From: Intestinimonas butyriciproducens
GTDB lineage: Bacteria > Bacillota > Clostridia > Oscillospirales > Butyricicoccaceae
Direction of reading: 5' to 3'
Length of the DNA stretch: 64,000 nt
Assembly (NCBI RefSeq): GCF_016901775.1
Contig: NZ_JACJKW010000010.1
Span: 1-64,000, forward strand
Shown here: one piece after another, positions 8,556 through 54,009 of the stretch
Numbering within the stretch: position 1 is the stretch's first letter
Layout of the letters: the number at the start of each line of letters is the position of its first letter
Notes under the pieces: generated by a model
The model's database searches: none
Told to the model about the DNA's origin: nothing
What the model saw: the letters and a program-made list of their open reading frames with translations, nothing else
Position numbers and translations under genes: made by a program

Positions 8556-8570
8556 TATTCAGATCAGAAA

Positions 8571-8594
8571 AGCCCGCCAGAACACGGCGGGCTT
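8571..8594 (+). terminator. degV terminator hairpin, left copy flanking element A
   Basis: AGCCCGCC-AGAACAC-GGCGGGCT. It is repeated with one base change at 8801-8824, on the other side of element A. The left copy lacks a T-run; the right copy has TTT. Confidence 0.75.
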
Positions 8595-8599
8595 GCCCA

Positions 8600-8794
8600 T
8601 GTCGAAAAAGTGGCCTTCGCCACTTTTTCGAGTTTTTGCAAGGGTCTGCATGCAGCCGATTGCCCCCTTTCAGCGGTCAACCGGCCACACTTGTCTCTTG
8701 AGAGGTGCAAAAACCGATGCACAGGTCGTCGGTTTTTGCGGATTGATGAGGGGTAGGGCAAAAGAGGTTTTTACATAATAATGGTTGGTCGACA
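8600..8794 (-). mobile_element. Terminator-flanked repeat element, copy A (reverse orientation)
   Basis: A 195-bp intergenic element with ends TGTCGA and TCGACA, lying between two copies of the degV terminator. Reading the minus strand it carries the CCCTACCCCTCATCAATC block, then hairpin 1 (arms GCAAAAACCGACG and CATCGGTTTTTGC around ACCTGTG). A second GC-rich stem region follows that differs from the other copies (insertion near 8655-8680), and then the terminal palindrome TCGAAAAAGTGG/CCACTTTTTCGA. Copies B, C and D are at 17662, 53801 and 55908. There is no transposase, so any mobility would depend on proteins supplied elsewhere. Confidence 0.75.
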
Positions 8795-8800
8795 GACGGA

Positions 8801-8825
8801 AGCCCGCCGGAACACGGCGGGCTTT
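8801..8825 (+). terminator. degV terminator hairpin, right copy flanking element A
   Basis: AGCCCGCC-GGAACAC-GGCGGGCTTT, matching 8571-8594 at 23 of 24 positions. Confidence 0.8.
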
Positions 8826-8964: not shown

Positions 8965-9177
8965 ATGACAGAACAAAGTAAAATTCGCAATTTTTCCATT
9001 GTAGCTCATATTGACCATGGCAAATCCGTCCCCAGTGAGCTGTGCTCCCTGGGGGCCCCTTGGGATTGGAAATTCCAGCCGGAAATCAATTCCGTCTGGA
9101 AGGGTTCGGCCCGGAGGGCCGTCCCATCTTCGATGGGGTCCCTGCGTGGATTTGCTGTAAGGAGGAGCCTTGGATGA
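8965..9177 (+). pseudogene. lepA 5' fragment, copy 1, fused to cassette-encoded tail (70 codons)
   Basis: Starts with the first 21 codons of lepA ([21 protein letters not shown]), then departs inside the P-loop into 49 residues with no recognisable family. It has an AAAGAGGAAAG ribosome site, likely the original lepA site. Its TGA stop overlaps the ATG of copy 2 in an ATGA, so the two could be translationally coupled. It may be translated as a short leader peptide or be only debris. Confidence 0.75.
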
Positions 9178-9368
9178 CAGAACAAAGTAAAATTCGCAAC
9201 TTTTCCATTGTAGCTCATATTGACCATGGCAAATCCGTCCCCAGTGAGCTGCGCTCCCTGGGGGCCCCTTGGGATTGGAAATTCCAGCCGGAAATCAATT
9301 CCGTCTGGAAGGGTTCGGCCCGGAGGGCCGTCCCATCTTCGATGGGTCCCTGCGTGGATTTGCTGTAA
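9174..9368 (+). pseudogene. lepA 5' fragment, copy 2 (64 codons)
   Basis: Same composition as copy 1. Loss of one G near the end of the cassette shifts the frame, so it stops at a TAA at 9366-9368, 13 bases before the lepA start, with GGAGGAG in the gap. Confidence 0.75.
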
Positions 9369-9381
9369 GGAGGAGCCTTGG

Positions 9382-11190
9382 ATGACAGAACAAAGTAAAA
9401 TTCGCAATTTTTCCATCGTAGCTCATATTGACCATGGCAAATCCACGCTGGCCGACCGGCTGATGGAGGCCTGCGATGCGGTTTCCGACCGGGAAATGGA
9501 AGATCAGCTGCTGGATAACATGGATCTGGAGAGAGAACGGGGCATTACCATCAAAGCCCGGGCCGTACGGCTCAATTACAAGGCCCAGGATGGAGAGACC
9601 TATGCCCTCAATCTGATCGATACCCCGGGCCATGTGGACTTCAACTACGAGGTGTCCCGCTCTTTGGCCGCTTGTGAAGGGGCCATTCTGGTGGTGGATG
9701 CTGCCCAGGGAATCGAAGCCCAGACTCTGGCCAACACCTATCTGGCTTTGGAGCATGACCTGGAGATTTTGCCGGTGCTGAATAAAATCGATCTCCCCGC
9801 CGCTGATCCTCAGCGGGTCAAGGGGGAGATCGAGGATATTATCGGTATCCCTGCTTTGGATGCACCGGAGATCTCGGCCAAGATGGGGCTGAACATTCCG
9901 GCGGTGCTGGAGGATATTGTGCAGAATGTTCCGGCGCCCAAGGGCGATGCTCAGGCGCCGCTGCGGGCATTGATCTTTGACAGCCAATATGACCCCTACC
10001 GGGGCGTCATTGTCTACTTCCGGATTATGGAAGGCACACTCTCCACCGGTATGAAGGTGAAGCTGATGGCCACCGGCGGAGAATACGAAGTGCTGGAATG
10101 CGGTTATCTGCTGCCCATGGGAATGGGCCCCTGTGAGACCCTGACCGCAGGAGAGGTGGGGTATTTCACCGCTTCCATCAAAAATGTGAAAGACACCCGG
10201 GTGGGTGATACCATCACAGAGGCCGCGCGTCCCGCTGCGGAGCCTTTGCCCGGTTATCGTCCGGCCCAGGCCATGGTATATTGCGGCGTTTACACCGAGG
10301 ACGGCTCCAAATATCCCGATTTGCGGGACGCTTTGGAAAAACTCCAGCTGAATGATGCTGCGCTGTCCTTTGAGCCGGAATCGTCAGCGGCCCTGGGCTT
10401 TGGCTTCCGCTGCGGCTTTTTGGGGATGCTCCATATGGAGATCATCCAGGAGCGTCTGGAGCGGGAGTTTGATCTGGATCTGGTGACCACCCTGCCTTCG
10501 GTTATTTACGAGATCACCAAAACCGATGGTACGGTAGTGCGGGTGGACAATCCCCACAACTATCCGGATCCCGGTTCCATCGCTCTGTCCAAAGAGCCTT
10601 ATGCCAAGGTATCCATCATTGCGCCGCCCGATTATGTGGGCAATATTATGCCCATGTGCCAGGAGCGGCGGGGCGAATTTAAAGATATGCAGTATCTGGA
10701 TCAGAATCTGGTGGAGCTGCACTATCAGATGCCCCTGGGTGAGATCATTTACGACTTTTTCGATGCGCTGAAAGCCCGCACCAAGGGATATGCTTCTTTG
10801 GATTATGAGATGTCCGATTATCGGGAAAGCGATCTGGTGAAGGTGGATCTGCTGCTCAATGGAGAGCAAGTGGATGCTCTGTCCTTCATTGCCCATCGGG
10901 AAAAGGCATACAGCCGGGCCCGGCGAATCTGTGAAAAGCTGAAGGAAAATATTCCCCGTCAGTTGTTTGAGGTTCCCATTCAGGCGGCCATCGGCGGGAA
11001 GATCATTGCGCGGGAAACGGTAAAAGCCATGCGGAAGGATGTGCTGGCCAAGTGCTATGGCGGCGACATCACCCGGAAAAAGAAGCTGCTGGAAAAGCAG
11101 AAAGAAGGCAAAAAGAAGATGCGGAGCCTGGGAAGTGTGCAGCTTCCCACCGAGGCCTTTATGGCAGTGCTGAAGCTGGACGAAGAATAA
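9382..11190 (+). CDS. lepA: Elongation factor 4 (LepA), ribosomal back-translocating GTPase
   Basis: A 602-residue translational GTPase of the EF4/LepA family that acts on the ribosome. The G1 loop is AHIDHGKST (14-22), with DTPGHVDF (G3) and NKIDLP (G4). The EF-G-like domains follow, and the LepA-specific C-terminal domain ends near [17 protein letters not shown]. Length matches the family. The ATG at 9382 is chosen because it begins the only copy that continues past the P-loop; AGGAGGAG, donated by the upstream repeat, is 8 bases away. Both ends of the gene are duplicated outside it (8965-9381 and 11326-11877). hemW follows after the downstream array and may share the transcript. Confidence 0.97.
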
Positions 11191-11325
11191 TTCATCTTCT
11201 TTTTGCCTGGGGCCCCACAAAGTGGGGCGGCGCAAGTGCGCCGGAGGGCGCAGGGGCAATTCATTTGCCCCGAGCCAGTCTGATTTAAGGGGCCCCCGCA
11301 AAAGGAAAACCTTTTGCGGGGAGAT

Positions 11326-11405
11326 AAAAAGAAGATGCGGAGCCTGGGAAGTGTACAGCTTCCCACCGAGGCCTTTATGGCAGTGCTGAAGCTGGACGAA
11401 GAATA
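11326..11405 (+). pseudogene. lepA 3' fragment, copy L1
   Basis: The last 80 bases of lepA with one or two changes; encodes the C-terminus ending KLDEE and a TAG in place of TAA. No start site. Confidence 0.85.
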
Positions 11406-11561
11406 GGCCCTGGGCCCGTGGCCTGAGCAGAGTGAGGCAGCTGAAACGAAGCAGCCTGGGTGAAGGCCGACATGGCCGTCCGGACACCGGACCAATTCAT
11501 TTGCCCCGAGCCAGTCTGATTTAAGGGGCCCCCGCAAAAGGAAAACCTTTTGCGGGGAAAT

Positions 11562-11641
11562 AAAAAGAAGATGCGGAGTCTGGGAAGTGTACAACTTCCC
11601 ACCGAGGCCTTTATGGCAGTGCTGAAGCTGGACGAAGAATA
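11562..11641 (+). pseudogene. lepA 3' fragment, copy L2
   Basis: Second 80-base copy, 236 bases after L1, with further substitutions (for example GTGTACAACTT). Confidence 0.85.
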
Positions 11642-11797
11642 GGCCTTGGGCCCGTGGCCTGAACGAAGTGAGGCAGCTGAAACGAAGCAGCCTGGGTGAA
11701 GGCCGGTATGGCCGTCCGGACACCGGACCAATTCATTTGCCCCGAGCCAGTCTGATTTAAGGGGCCCCCGCAAAAGGAAAACCTTTTGCGGGGAGAT

Positions 11798-11877
11798 AAA
11801 AAGAAGATGCGGAGCCTGGGAAGTGTGCAACTTCCCACCGAGGCCTTTATGGCAGTGCTGAAGCTGGACGAAGAATA
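11798..11877 (+). pseudogene. lepA 3' fragment, copy L3
   Basis: Third 80-base copy, exactly 236 bases after L2. Confidence 0.85.
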
Positions 11878-12289
11878 GGCCCTGGGCCCCGTGGCCTGAA
11901 CAGAGTGAGGCAGCTGAAACGAAGCAGCCTGGGTGAAGGCCGATATGGCCGTCCGGACACCGGACCTGGACGAAGAATAGGCCCTGGGTCCGTGGCCTGA
12001 ACGAAGTGAGGCAGCTGAAACGAAGCAGCCTGGGTGAAGGCCGGTATGGGAGGCCGGACACCGGCCCTGGACGAAGAATAGGCCCTGGTCCCTGTGGCCT
12101 GAACAGAGTGAGGCAGCTAAAACGAAGCAGCCCGGGTGAAGGCCGATATGGCCGTCCGGACACCGGACCAATTCACTACCGTTCGGACATCGGCCCCGTG
12201 GCCTGAACAGAGTGAGGCAGCTGAAACGAAGCAGCCCGGGTGAAGGCCGACATGGCCGTCCGGACACCGGACCTGGATTGGGAGGAATG

Positions 12290-13474
12290 ATGGGGATTAT
12301 GGGATTTCGCAAAAAGCAGCCGCCCAAGCCGGCGATCCGGCAGAGCCTGGGTGTCTATATCCATGTACCATTCTGCCGGAAGAAATGCGCATATTGCGAT
12401 TTTTATTCCCGGCCCTGTAAGGATGAAGGGCTGATGGACCGATATGTGCGGGCTGTGGAACGGCATTTTGGTGACTATTTCCGTGGCAGCGAAAGTTTTG
12501 ATATCGATACCGTTTATTTTGGCGGCGGGACCCCTTCTTTGCTGGGAGGGAAGCGTTTGCGGCAGCTGCTCAATGCTTTGGAGAAAACCGGAGGCATTGC
12601 CAAAGGCGCTGAGATCACCGTGGAATGCAATCCGGAAAGCGTGGATAAAAAGATGCTCCGCACCTTGTTCAAGGCTGGAGTCAACCGGCTTTCCATGGGT
12701 GTCCAAAGCGCTCACGACGAGGAGCTTCTGGCCCTGGGCCGGCTGCACACCTTTCAGCAAGCCCGCCAGGCGGTGGCCGACGCCAAGGAAGTGGGGTTTT
12801 CCAATATCTCTTTGGACCTGATTTACGGTCTGCCCGATCAGACGATGGAACAGTGGAAAGATTCCGTAGAAAAGATCATCGCTCTGGAGCCTCAGCATAT
12901 CTCTGCCTACGCTCTCAAGCTGGAAAAGGGTACGCCGCTGTATGAAGAAAATCCGGAACTCCCTCCGGAGGATGTACAGGCCGATATGTATTTTTACGCA
13001 GTGGAAAGGCTGCAGCAGGCGGGATTTGAGCAATATGAGATCTCCAATTTTGCGCAGAAGGGCTACCGTTCCCGGCATAACAGCCGCTATTGGGATCTGT
13101 CCCAGTATCTGGGGTTCGGTCCTTCGGCCCATAGCTTTTTCGGCGGCCGCCGCTTTTCCTTTATCGCCGATACCCAAGGGTATATCGACGGGGTGGAGGG
13201 CAACGGCCCGCTGCTGGAAGAGGCCGAGGAAGTGGCCAGTTTCCATCGGCACGGGGAATACATTATGCTGAAACTGCGCACCACCGATGGAGTGGATGAA
13301 GAAGAGTTTTACCGCCGCTTCCGGCTGGAGTTTACTCCCTATGCTCAGCGGCTGAGCAAATACATCCAGGCAGGCTACTGCCAGAAAGAAGGAGGAGTGT
13401 GGCGGCTGACACCCAAGGGGATGATGGTTTCCAATGCCATTTTGACCGATGTGCTGGAAAGCGAACTGCTGTAA
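12290..13474 (+). CDS. hemW: HemW-like radical SAM protein (heme chaperone, formerly coproporphyrinogen oxidase-like)
   Basis: A 394-residue radical SAM protein of the HemN/HemW group. The 4Fe-4S/SAM motif is at C29-x3-C33-x2-C36 in PFCRKKCAYCDF, followed by FGGGTPSLL and GVQSAHDEEL, and a C-terminal HemN_C domain (RTTDGVDEEEF). HemW lacks the extra N-terminal extension of true HemN and is thought to deliver heme. The start is uncertain. GGAGGA at 12281-12286 gives ATG 12290 a spacing of 4; ATG 12299 is also possible. The 25 codons upstream belong to the Y repeat and were excluded. lepA-hemW adjacency is common in Firmicutes, but here it is interrupted by the repeat array. Confidence 0.9.
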   Translation: MGIMGFRKKQPPKPAIRQSLGVYIHVPFCRKKCAYCDFYSRPCKDEGLMDRYVRAVERHFGDYFRGSESFDIDTVYFGGGTPSLLGGKRLRQLLNALEKTGGIAKGAEITVECNPESVDKKMLRTLFKAGVNRLSMGVQSAHDEELLALGRLHTFQQARQAVADAKEVGFSNISLDLIYGLPDQTMEQWKDSVEKIIALEPQHISAYALKLEKGTPLYEENPELPPEDVQADMYFYAVERLQQAGFEQYEISNFAQKGYRSRHNSRYWDLSQYLGFGPSAHSFFGGRRFSFIADTQGYIDGVEGNGPLLEEAEEVASFHRHGEYIMLKLRTTDGVDEEEFYRRFRLEFTPYAQRLSKYIQAGYCQKEGGVWRLTPKGMMVSNAILTDVLESELL

Positions 13475-17629: not shown

Positions 17630-17656
17630 AAAAAGGACCCGAAAGGGTCCTTTTTT
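17630..17656 (+). terminator. clpB terminator, left copy flanking element B
   Basis: AAAAAGGACCC-GAAA-GGGTCCTTTTTT immediately after the clpB stop. A near-identical copy is at 17840-17868. Confidence 0.88.
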
Positions 17657-17661
17657 GAGCG

Positions 17662-17837
17662 TGTCGAAAAACTTATATGATGAAAAAAGACCGTTTGCCC
17701 TACTCTTCATCAATCCGCAAAAAGCCGCGACCTGTGCGTGGCTTTTTGCACTTCTCAAGGGGCAAGTGTACGCCAAAGGCGTGCATGCAGCCCCTTGTAA
17801 GAACTCGAACAAGTGACCTCCGGCCACTTGTTCGACA
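17662..17837 (+). mobile_element. Terminator-flanked repeat element, copy B
   Basis: A 176-bp element with perfect 7-bp terminal inverted repeats TGTCGAA (17662-17668) and TTCGACA (17831-17837). It lies between two copies of the clpB terminator. Internal order: CCCTACTCTTCATCAATC; hairpin 1 with perfect pairing of GCAAAAAGCC and GGCTTTTTGC; hairpin 2 (AAGGGGC/GCCCCTT enclosing GCC-AAA-GGC); terminal palindrome TCGAACAAGTG/CACTTGTTCGA. An open frame across it could be read in phase with the endolysin, but this is rejected because the endolysin start has its own ribosome site downstream. Confidence 0.78.
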
Positions 17838-17839
17838 TG

Positions 17840-17868
17840 AAAAAAGGACCCGAAAGGGTCCTTTTTTT
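17840..17868 (+). terminator. clpB terminator, right copy flanking element B
   Basis: AAAAAAGGACCC-GAAA-GGGTCCTTTTTTT; same stem and loop as 17630-17656. Confidence 0.88.
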
Positions 17869-53773: not shown

Positions 53774-53797
53774 GCCCCGGCGATACTGCCGGGGCTG
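53774..53797 (+). terminator. Terminator hairpin, left copy flanking element C
   Basis: GCCCCGGC-GATACT-GCCGGGGC followed by TG; exact copy of 53981-54004. No T-run on this side. Confidence 0.75.
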
Positions 53798-53800
53798 GGT

Positions 53801-53974
53801 GCATCGAAAAAAGTGTGAGAACCACTTTTTTCGGATTTTTGCAAGGGTCTGCGTGCACGCCTTGGGCGCACACTGGCCCCTTGAGAAGTGCAAAAAGCCA
53901 CGCGCAGGTCGCGACTTTTTGCGAATCCATAGGGAGAGGACGAACGGTTTCTTTTCGTATATGGATTTTCGAGA
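53801..53974 (-). mobile_element. Terminator-flanked repeat element, copy C (reverse orientation)
   Basis: About 174 bp with eroded ends (GCATCGAAAA and ATTTTCGAGAG). Read on the minus strand it has hairpin 1 with arms GCAAAAAGTCGCG and CGTGGCTTTTTGC around ACCTGCG, hairpin 2 (AAGGGGCCAGTGTGCGCC then GGCGTGCACGC), and the terminal palindrome near CGAAAAAAGTGG. It is the most diverged copy, with changes in the CCTACCCCTCATC block. It separates the trpS-tagO operon from the third MATE gene. Confidence 0.72.
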
Positions 53975-53980
53975 GTTTAT

Positions 53981-54009
53981 GCCCCGGCGATACTGCCGGG
54001 GCTGTTTTT
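53981..54009 (+). terminator. Terminator hairpin, right copy flanking element C
   Basis: GCCCCGGC-GATACT-GCCGGGGC-TG-TTTTT. Confidence 0.85.

Follow-up and report, generated by a model that had tools for sequence, protein, structure and literature searches.

How does an intact gene come to be bracketed on both sides by copies of its own ends? The window analysed here, a 64,000-nt stretch of Intestinimonas butyriciproducens, contains an intact lepA with copies of its last 80 nt behind it and of its first 63 nt ahead of it, and hemW next downstream (both protein identities are from NCBIfam, LepA as TIGR01393 with 992.5 bits). The reading we prefer, at a probability of about 0.62, is that lepA has received two insertions of a gene-less family, here called E, each of which would have arrived as a guided unit with a replacement gene end.

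On the 3' side the 80-nt tail of lepA is found as the gene's own at 11110 and as copies at 11326, 11562 and 11798 (identity 96-99%), with 14-nt remnants at 11966 and 12067, and Tandem Repeats Finder returns a period of 236 over 11257-11966 and of 101 over 11864-12277. This spacing and identity bear out the array of three full and two vestigial tail copies described in the initial annotation, and the two modules that it placed between them are also as described: X has a perfect 12-bp stem (11294-11305/11310-11321), and the exact 19-mer with GTCCGG-ACA-CCGGAC closes Y in five of its six occurrences. From shuffles, 0-0.01 matches to the X and Y patterns are expected by chance. Just 3' of the stop, at 11193-11208, lies a perfect 16-nt reverse complement, S', of lepA 11106-11121 (site S). 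Site S straddles 11110, where the tail copies start, and with the location of S' this gives the order S, tail T, stop, S', module, second T. The stretch 11100-11330 has a fold z of -6.28, with S and S' forming a 16-bp stem around the lepA tail. The features of this side are as follows, R1 being a covariance model of the E core.

9382-11190, + strand: lepA, intact (TIGR01393), with S sites at 9437-9448 (5') and 11106-11121 (3')
11110-11189, + strand: first tail copy, continuous with lepA (repeat comparison)
11191-11325, + strand: 3'-side E, full-length (R1 90.8 bits, this sequence being itself within the R1 model)
11193-11208, 11209-11246, 11247-11321 and 11322-11325: parts of this E, namely S', 5' hairpins, core and junction nucleotides
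11326-11405, + strand: lepA tail copy 2 (99% to 11110-11189)
11406-11492, + strand: module Y, outside E, ending in the palindrome GGCCGTCCGGACACCGGAC
11493-11561, + strand: 5'-truncated E (module X), without S' and 5' hairpins (R1 11483-11557, 64.5 bits)
11562-11641, + strand: lepA tail copy 3 (repeat comparison)
11642-11728, + strand: module Y copy 2
11729-11797, + strand: 5'-truncated E (module X) (R1 11719-11793, 64.5 bits)
11798-11877, + strand: lepA tail copy 4 (repeat comparison)
11878-12272, + strand: four more Y copies, two after 14-nt lepA remnants (11966-11979, 12067-12080)
12290-13474: hemW (NCBIfam)

Of the two modules, X together with 11191-11256, the stretch just past the lepA stop, is E; Y is not E and, apart from a small palindrome that belongs to another dispersed family, is local. 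X units 2 and 3 begin within the AATTCA hairpin and are joined to Y at a common CAATTCA, and the borders of the 101-bp units have CTGGA in common. The stretch 11878-12272 is a 101-bp tandem duplication of the ordinary kind, and the 236-bp and 101-bp units alike are later duplications for which ordinary recombination is sufficient, so the number of units in the array is uninformative about E. In the organism's own genome long matches to the array are confined to the lepA locus. The initial annotation had held that uniqueness of X and Y to the site, with a unit number constant across strains, would favour simple slippage duplication; the first half of this is what is seen in this genome, and the unit number may well reflect ordinary duplication. 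Relatives of E lie at the ends of other genes in related genomes. The last 18-26 nt of Y, and a few longer gapped pieces of it, are found some 47 times over a few contigs of this genome. As an observation in its own right, a palindrome of 19-23 nt, GTCCGG-NCA-CCGGAC, occurs in mosaics of other small palindromes on contigs C3, C10, C14, C24, C28 and C57 as well as in the window (11474-12272); its stems vary in paired fashion (for example GTCCCG-ACA-CGGGAC), and none was found in 20-kb samples of C1 and C2.

The 5' side of lepA carries a corresponding arrangement on the opposite strand, and the statement that the gene is bracketed by its own ends is borne out here: its first 63 nt are also present at 8965 and 9174, ahead of the full gene, with modules of 145-146 nt between.

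8965-9027, + strand: lepA start, outer copy, exactly from the ATG (98% to 9382-9444 over 63 nt)
9028-9173, - strand: 5'-side E unit A, 146 nt (core 9030-9102; R1 31.0 bits, E-value 2.4e-5), with S' at 9144-9155 and AGGAGG at 9160-9165 right before the next ATG
9174-9236, + strand: lepA start copy 2 (repeat comparison)
9237-9381, - strand: 5'-side E unit B, 145 nt (core 9239-9311; S' 9352-9363; R1 30.6 bits, E-value 3e-5)

Both antisense copies, at 9144-9155 and 9352-9363, match lepA 9437-9448 over 12 nt, and the junction of the 5' modules lies two nucleotides past the last hairpin. Judged by sequence, the 5' and 3' modules are one element family in opposite orientation, and the R1 match, the S' and the junction on the 5' side lead to the view that lepA carries two E insertions, each pointing outward. 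The outer start at 8965-9027 is probably the original one, now orphaned, and the 5' E would have doubled once (209 bp).

How far lepA is affected in this way elsewhere was addressed by searching 394 genomes of the order for the LepA C-terminus and re-examining the 67 with at least two matches, plus G038. Extra lepA tails beside lepA are present in nine of the 394 (G000, G017, G216, G355, G203, G247, G395, G415 and G145), plus G038, with four of them in G395. In eight of these ten the copy starts at residues 2-5 of the last 29, and in G017 and G038 about ten codons later. All ten duplications have an S' against their own site, over 11-20 aligned nucleotides, the weakest being that of G355 with 12 of 14 matched; the insertion site of G017 and G038 differs, and their S' differs to match. 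Families f1, f13 and f23 hardly differ in the codon at which lepA is entered. The inserts of G145 and G415 are short and outside R1 recognition, and the congener G001 has no lepA-tail copy. Beside these counts, the L223 locus of G395 holds a perfect-looking array after lepA of four E and lepA-tail units of two alternating types; in G031 the contigs of L226 and L227 end in a lepA-tail-like stretch adjoining hemW and lepA, suggesting that the assembly broke at such repeats; and the lepA-hemW gap of G001 (L153 1234-1500) holds other small palindromes, TCGGCAACGCCGA and CCAGCGTGCCGCTGGACCC.

The inserts of the window, G216, G355, G203, G247 and G395 are alignable and have a common fold: a hairpin with an AATTCAYTT loop inside GCAGG...CCGAGC, then some 15 nt, then GGGGYCCCC, and finally a hairpin closed by GGGG. 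E is thereby described as a gene-less, dispersed element of about 110-150 nt with a 77-nt core of strong covariation. R1, built from five of the lepA E cores, finds E in 77 of the 394 genomes of the order at E-values of 1e-3 or below and in 38 at 1e-5 or below, the copy numbers being floors because 12 candidates were scored per genome; in a class-wide sample three of 391 genomes match at 1e-5 or below, all three within the order. Within the sampled parts of the organism's own genome (317 kb, including the window and one G001 stretch) E is at lepA only, and a genome-wide search gives nine matches at 1e-3 or below, of which those located are the window's own. Both-sided changes occur in 20 of 21 pairs, and 97.1% of cells pair against 72.8% when shuffled (101 matches, 95 of them distinct, including a few overlapping opposite-strand ones), figures that are favoured by an alignment fitted to the R1 model. 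The E core is on this modelling a candidate covarying RNA. A search of stretches against the 4227 Rfam families, at the gathering threshold in the window and at permissive E-values on E loci, gave no convincing match, the best E-values (0.0074 and 0.047) belonging to a hairpin outside E. A literature search, with preprints and most subscription journals outside its scope, returned no description of such an element; 3161 candidate RNAs of gut microbiomes are given in PMC8040213, and E could be among them.

Across loci the anatomy of E is a gene end with its stop, a short antisense S', E and a second copy of the gene end. It was scored at 70 places, one per locus, which are the best-scoring R1 matches of 25 loci and 40 chosen stretches plus the lepA loci; the window counts twice, once for each end, L224, having no R1 match, was placed by hand and L206 by sequence pattern. 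Flanking direct repeats are present at 53 of the 70, compared with 2 of 250 random stretches and 2 of 38 same-locus controls, and in 38 of the 53 the right copy starts 1-4 nt past the core. Where the repeats are clean (n=40) their median length is 67 bp, with a range of 32-114 bp. Thirteen of the 17 places that have no direct repeat are from genus g21, where E sits within intergenic mosaics. An S' score of 9 or more was obtained in 30 of 40 loci and in 71 of 1560 swapped pairs, a control that includes some homologous sites; the 40 comprise the loci whose gap and junction could be measured, L206 excluded, and among the ten below 9 is the window's 5' unit, mis-scored because its ends were displaced by the tandem copy. 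As a rule S extends from about -5 to +9 around the junction, and the insertion point itself shows a weak G preference only.

The other boundary of the repeat follows the coding sequence. Taking open frames of at least 90 codons as hosts, 32 of 53 first copies terminate no more than 5 nt from the host stop and 15 exactly there, while shifted controls give a mean of 1.6 and a maximum of 7 in 2000 draws. ORF length did not serve to tell 3' from 5' loci, GC-rich antisense frames being long. Where a gene start is copied, the copy stops on or close to the start codon, exactly in L269 and on the window's 5' side and within 6 nt in L249 and L268. At truB of Vescimonas fastidiosa MM35 a 60-nt repeat with one mismatch ends exactly at the annotated start, its far side directly adjoins the neighbouring gene's stop codon, a ribosome-binding site comes with the spacer, and a 9-nt S' can be made out by eye. 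In L239 and L301 the repeat continues through a terminator. The target gene end is copied in the interval from the insertion point to S', and this copy completes the reading frame at the stop codon or, for a reversed E, at the start codon.

These counts bear on the idea that recombination or template switching at hairpins made the copies and that E is hairpin-rich intergenic sequence. The short common borders of the 236-bp and 101-bp units (CAATTCA, CTGGA) are as slippage leaves them, and within their own genome X and Y are found at lepA alone. However this accounts for the later units only and leaves unexplained the S' statistics and a covarying core that joins unrelated genes of many genera at a fixed right end, and it is improbable. 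Simple tandem duplication requires a locus-confined unit, which holds for Y and the truncated X only; slippage alone was kept for the 236-bp and 101-bp units and rejected for E, given a core in 77 of 394 genomes and repeats at 53 of 70 places.

What was inserted can be judged where congeners are empty. G284 and G138, of the genus of G216 and G355, have no E at lepA, and the flank past the right copy of G216 is that of these empty genomes. The gene-joined lepA tail of G216 and G355 is 75-79% identical to that of G284 and G138, compared with 95-96% in the adjacent 81 nt upstream and 83-95% in further windows. The right copy is 85-90% (G216) and 80-83% (G355) identical to the empty congeners, and three adjacent positions read CTC in both left copies and GAG in both right copies and both empty genes. 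Probably, then, the insert brings its own gene end, the joined tail being foreign and the downstream copy native, as judged from one gene and weakly for G355. An insert with its own gene end would also explain why the repeats stop at coding boundaries, because incoming and native ends share coding sequence only.

The same comparison speaks to a second account, that E is SINE-like or MITE-like and entered through staggered cuts, by reverse transcription from a nick or by a DNA transposase, the gene-end copies being a long target-site duplication and S' the fold-back fill-in scar of a long 3' overhang. Several features suit it: a fixed right end with 1-4 extra nucleotides, repeats that at several loci are 98-100% identical, and an S' reaching about 5 nt beyond the insertion point, as limited strand displacement would yield. 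Yet repeats ending at stop and start codons far above chance would not come of random cutting, repeat length varies from 32 to 114 bp, and the gene-joined lepA tail is the divergent one in two genomes. Nor is an RVT_1 protein found in nine of 25 E-bearing genomes, the window's own and four E-rich g21 genomes included; RVT_1 is present in 16 of the 25 against 10 of 20 genomes with no R1 match, and is found neither in the window's genus nor in those four, a distribution that does not favour reverse transcription for E, though this may yet be involved. This account as a whole seems unlikely, and fold-back synthesis is the best rival for the origin of S'.

In the preferred reading of a guided unit, what would be inserted is a replacement gene end with stop, a spacer, S' and E, and the point of entry would lie in the final (or initial) 30-115 nt of a conserved gene. 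Such an insert would complete the gene and leave the original end stranded downstream. S' would fix the site by pairing, in the manner of a mobile intron's internal guide, of a group II intron's exon-binding site or of a guide RNA, and by this site-fixing E would spread between homologous genes of different species; an enzyme, if any, would act from elsewhere. The window's 3' E would then have been caught with Y in ordinary tandem duplications, giving the 236-bp and 101-bp units. Against this reading stand the 17 of 70 places with no repeat, the 10 of 40 loci with low S', near-identical copies that fit plain target duplication equally, the modest score of the 5' units (about 31 bits), and two efp elements that are not mutual nearest relatives. 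Homing by a nuclease that uses S' as its guide was rejected as self-harming: S' matches a site that stays intact in the occupied gene, and such a nuclease would cut its own carrier. A more far-reaching version is that E is a natural, protein-less home-and-rescue element, with S' an RNA guide to one conserved site per essential gene, delivering a functional and sometimes recoded gene end and spreading across species via core genes and phages, insertion perhaps relying on a novel small ribozyme of intron-like kind or on a trans-acting enzyme; we hold this to be possible and doubtful.

The host genes scanned, infB, leuS, aspS, alaS, tsaD, efp, metK, pheT, uvrA and eno, are all ten housekeeping genes; several of these proteins were under the whole-protein cut-off, the C-terminal part only having been scanned, and gene names beyond these ten, LepA and HemW are read from translations. 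Elements at the same site are often nearest relatives (lepA of G216 and G355, infB of G300 and G385, aspS of G216 and G138, and L249 with L274), the efp pair excepted. In eno the same codons are entered in G138 and G017, of families f1 and f13, the repeat at the G017 locus having been lost or never present. E is also present in three viral-contig stretches, one with phage-like proteins as read from translations, in two unannotated phage records from human faeces and in Vescimonas, the viral and phage loci being L304, L305, L306, L314 and L315. A weak E match (26.1 bits) in Agathobaculum butyriciproducens (L079 2300-2700) by reading lies between copies of a tRNA-like tail and terminator.

This range of hosts weighs on the proposal that E is a cis-regulatory or mRNA-stabilising 3' element whose duplicated tails serve translational coupling to the next gene. 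Its fold is conserved, and in many of 33 relatives hemW starts right at the lepA stop or overlaps it, so that a spare lepA end could preserve coupling. But the same E is found on the other strand at gene starts, at enolase and many unlinked genes, and is absent from close relatives, which makes the proposal very improbable. The initial annotation had likened the locus to the attL/attR scars of integrating elements. That an element was inserted stands; that the locus bears the scars of a site-specific integrating element now stripped of genes is very unlikely, the least likely of the alternatives. An intact gene with a spare end is indeed as seen with islands in gene 3' ends, but E enters many different genes per genome, at a site that differs with each host gene and with no common crossover core beyond the weak G preference, carries an antisense copy and is flanked by repeats of 32-114 bp, and no linked recombinase was found in the short stretches around loci. 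As to the parallel drawn with elements A-D of the window, R1 matches none of them and they look like another family. Duplicated terminators of 24-27 bp enclose elements of some 180-215 nt that have a GTCGAAAAAGTGGC...GCCACTTTTTCGA hairpin and a TGCAAGGGTCTGCATGCAGCC stretch (window 8570-8824, 17630-17867 and 53774-54004; own-genome C1 18324-18594 and C2 18593-18823), a separate dispersed family that may obey the same rule of a duplicated functional end.

Set against known systems, E has partial likenesses to several. MITEs, REP/BIME and Correia/NIME-type repeats are, like E, short, gene-less, dispersed and mosaic, and presumably moved by enzymes encoded elsewhere. In contrast to them E has no terminal inverted repeats of its own, the sole end-to-end inverted match being that of S' with the target, no short fixed target duplication but a gene-end repeat of 32-114 bp ending at coding boundaries, and it carries an antisense copy of each target. 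HEARO and OMEGA guide RNAs are structured RNAs with a guide-like 5' segment, as E would be, although in the stretches tested there was no HEARO covariance match even at permissive E-values. With group I introns and IStrons E has in common a guide near its left end that is antisense to the insertion-point sequence (30 of 40 loci), and homologous insertions that recur at the same site of conserved genes. PMC4227781 describes an internal guide sequence that pairs with the final 4-6 nt of the 5' exon, and group I ribozymes of 200-500 bp, whereas E is of about 110-150 nt and matches no Rfam intron family (gathering threshold in the window, permissive E-values on E loci). Splicing would be unnecessary for E, in contrast to group I introns, since its insert holds a copy of the gene end.

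The pairing of RNA with target that sets the site of group II introns, circularly permuted ones included, has its like in the putative target pairing of E, as has the terminal hairpin shortly 5' of the 3' junction. E differs in having no domain V by eye and no Rfam match, in the nine of 25 E-bearing genomes in which no RVT_1 protein was found, and in being far smaller, the circularly permuted class being of about 900 nt (PMC8637638). Integrative elements in gene 3' ends, such as SGI1-like islands (PMC8409611), likewise insert near the end and leave the gene whole, but E has no genes, no common att core and many host genes. Engineered home-and-rescue gene drives (PMC7968924) also target essential genes and carry the altered missing end; E is natural, no nuclease or cargo was found for it, and its drive-like spread is putative. 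In the matching of its site E resembles a mobile intron or guided element, and in keeping the gene whole an integrative element, but it has the tested defining features of neither.

A testable question is raised by all this, namely whether S' directs insertion or is the scar of it. If the preferred reading is true, bacteria harbour gene-less selfish elements that target essential genes by base pairing and supply the missing gene end in return, and E would connect mobile introns, guide RNAs and integrative elements. The repeated gene ends of gut Clostridia would then be explained, and E would offer a compact natural system for guided insertion.
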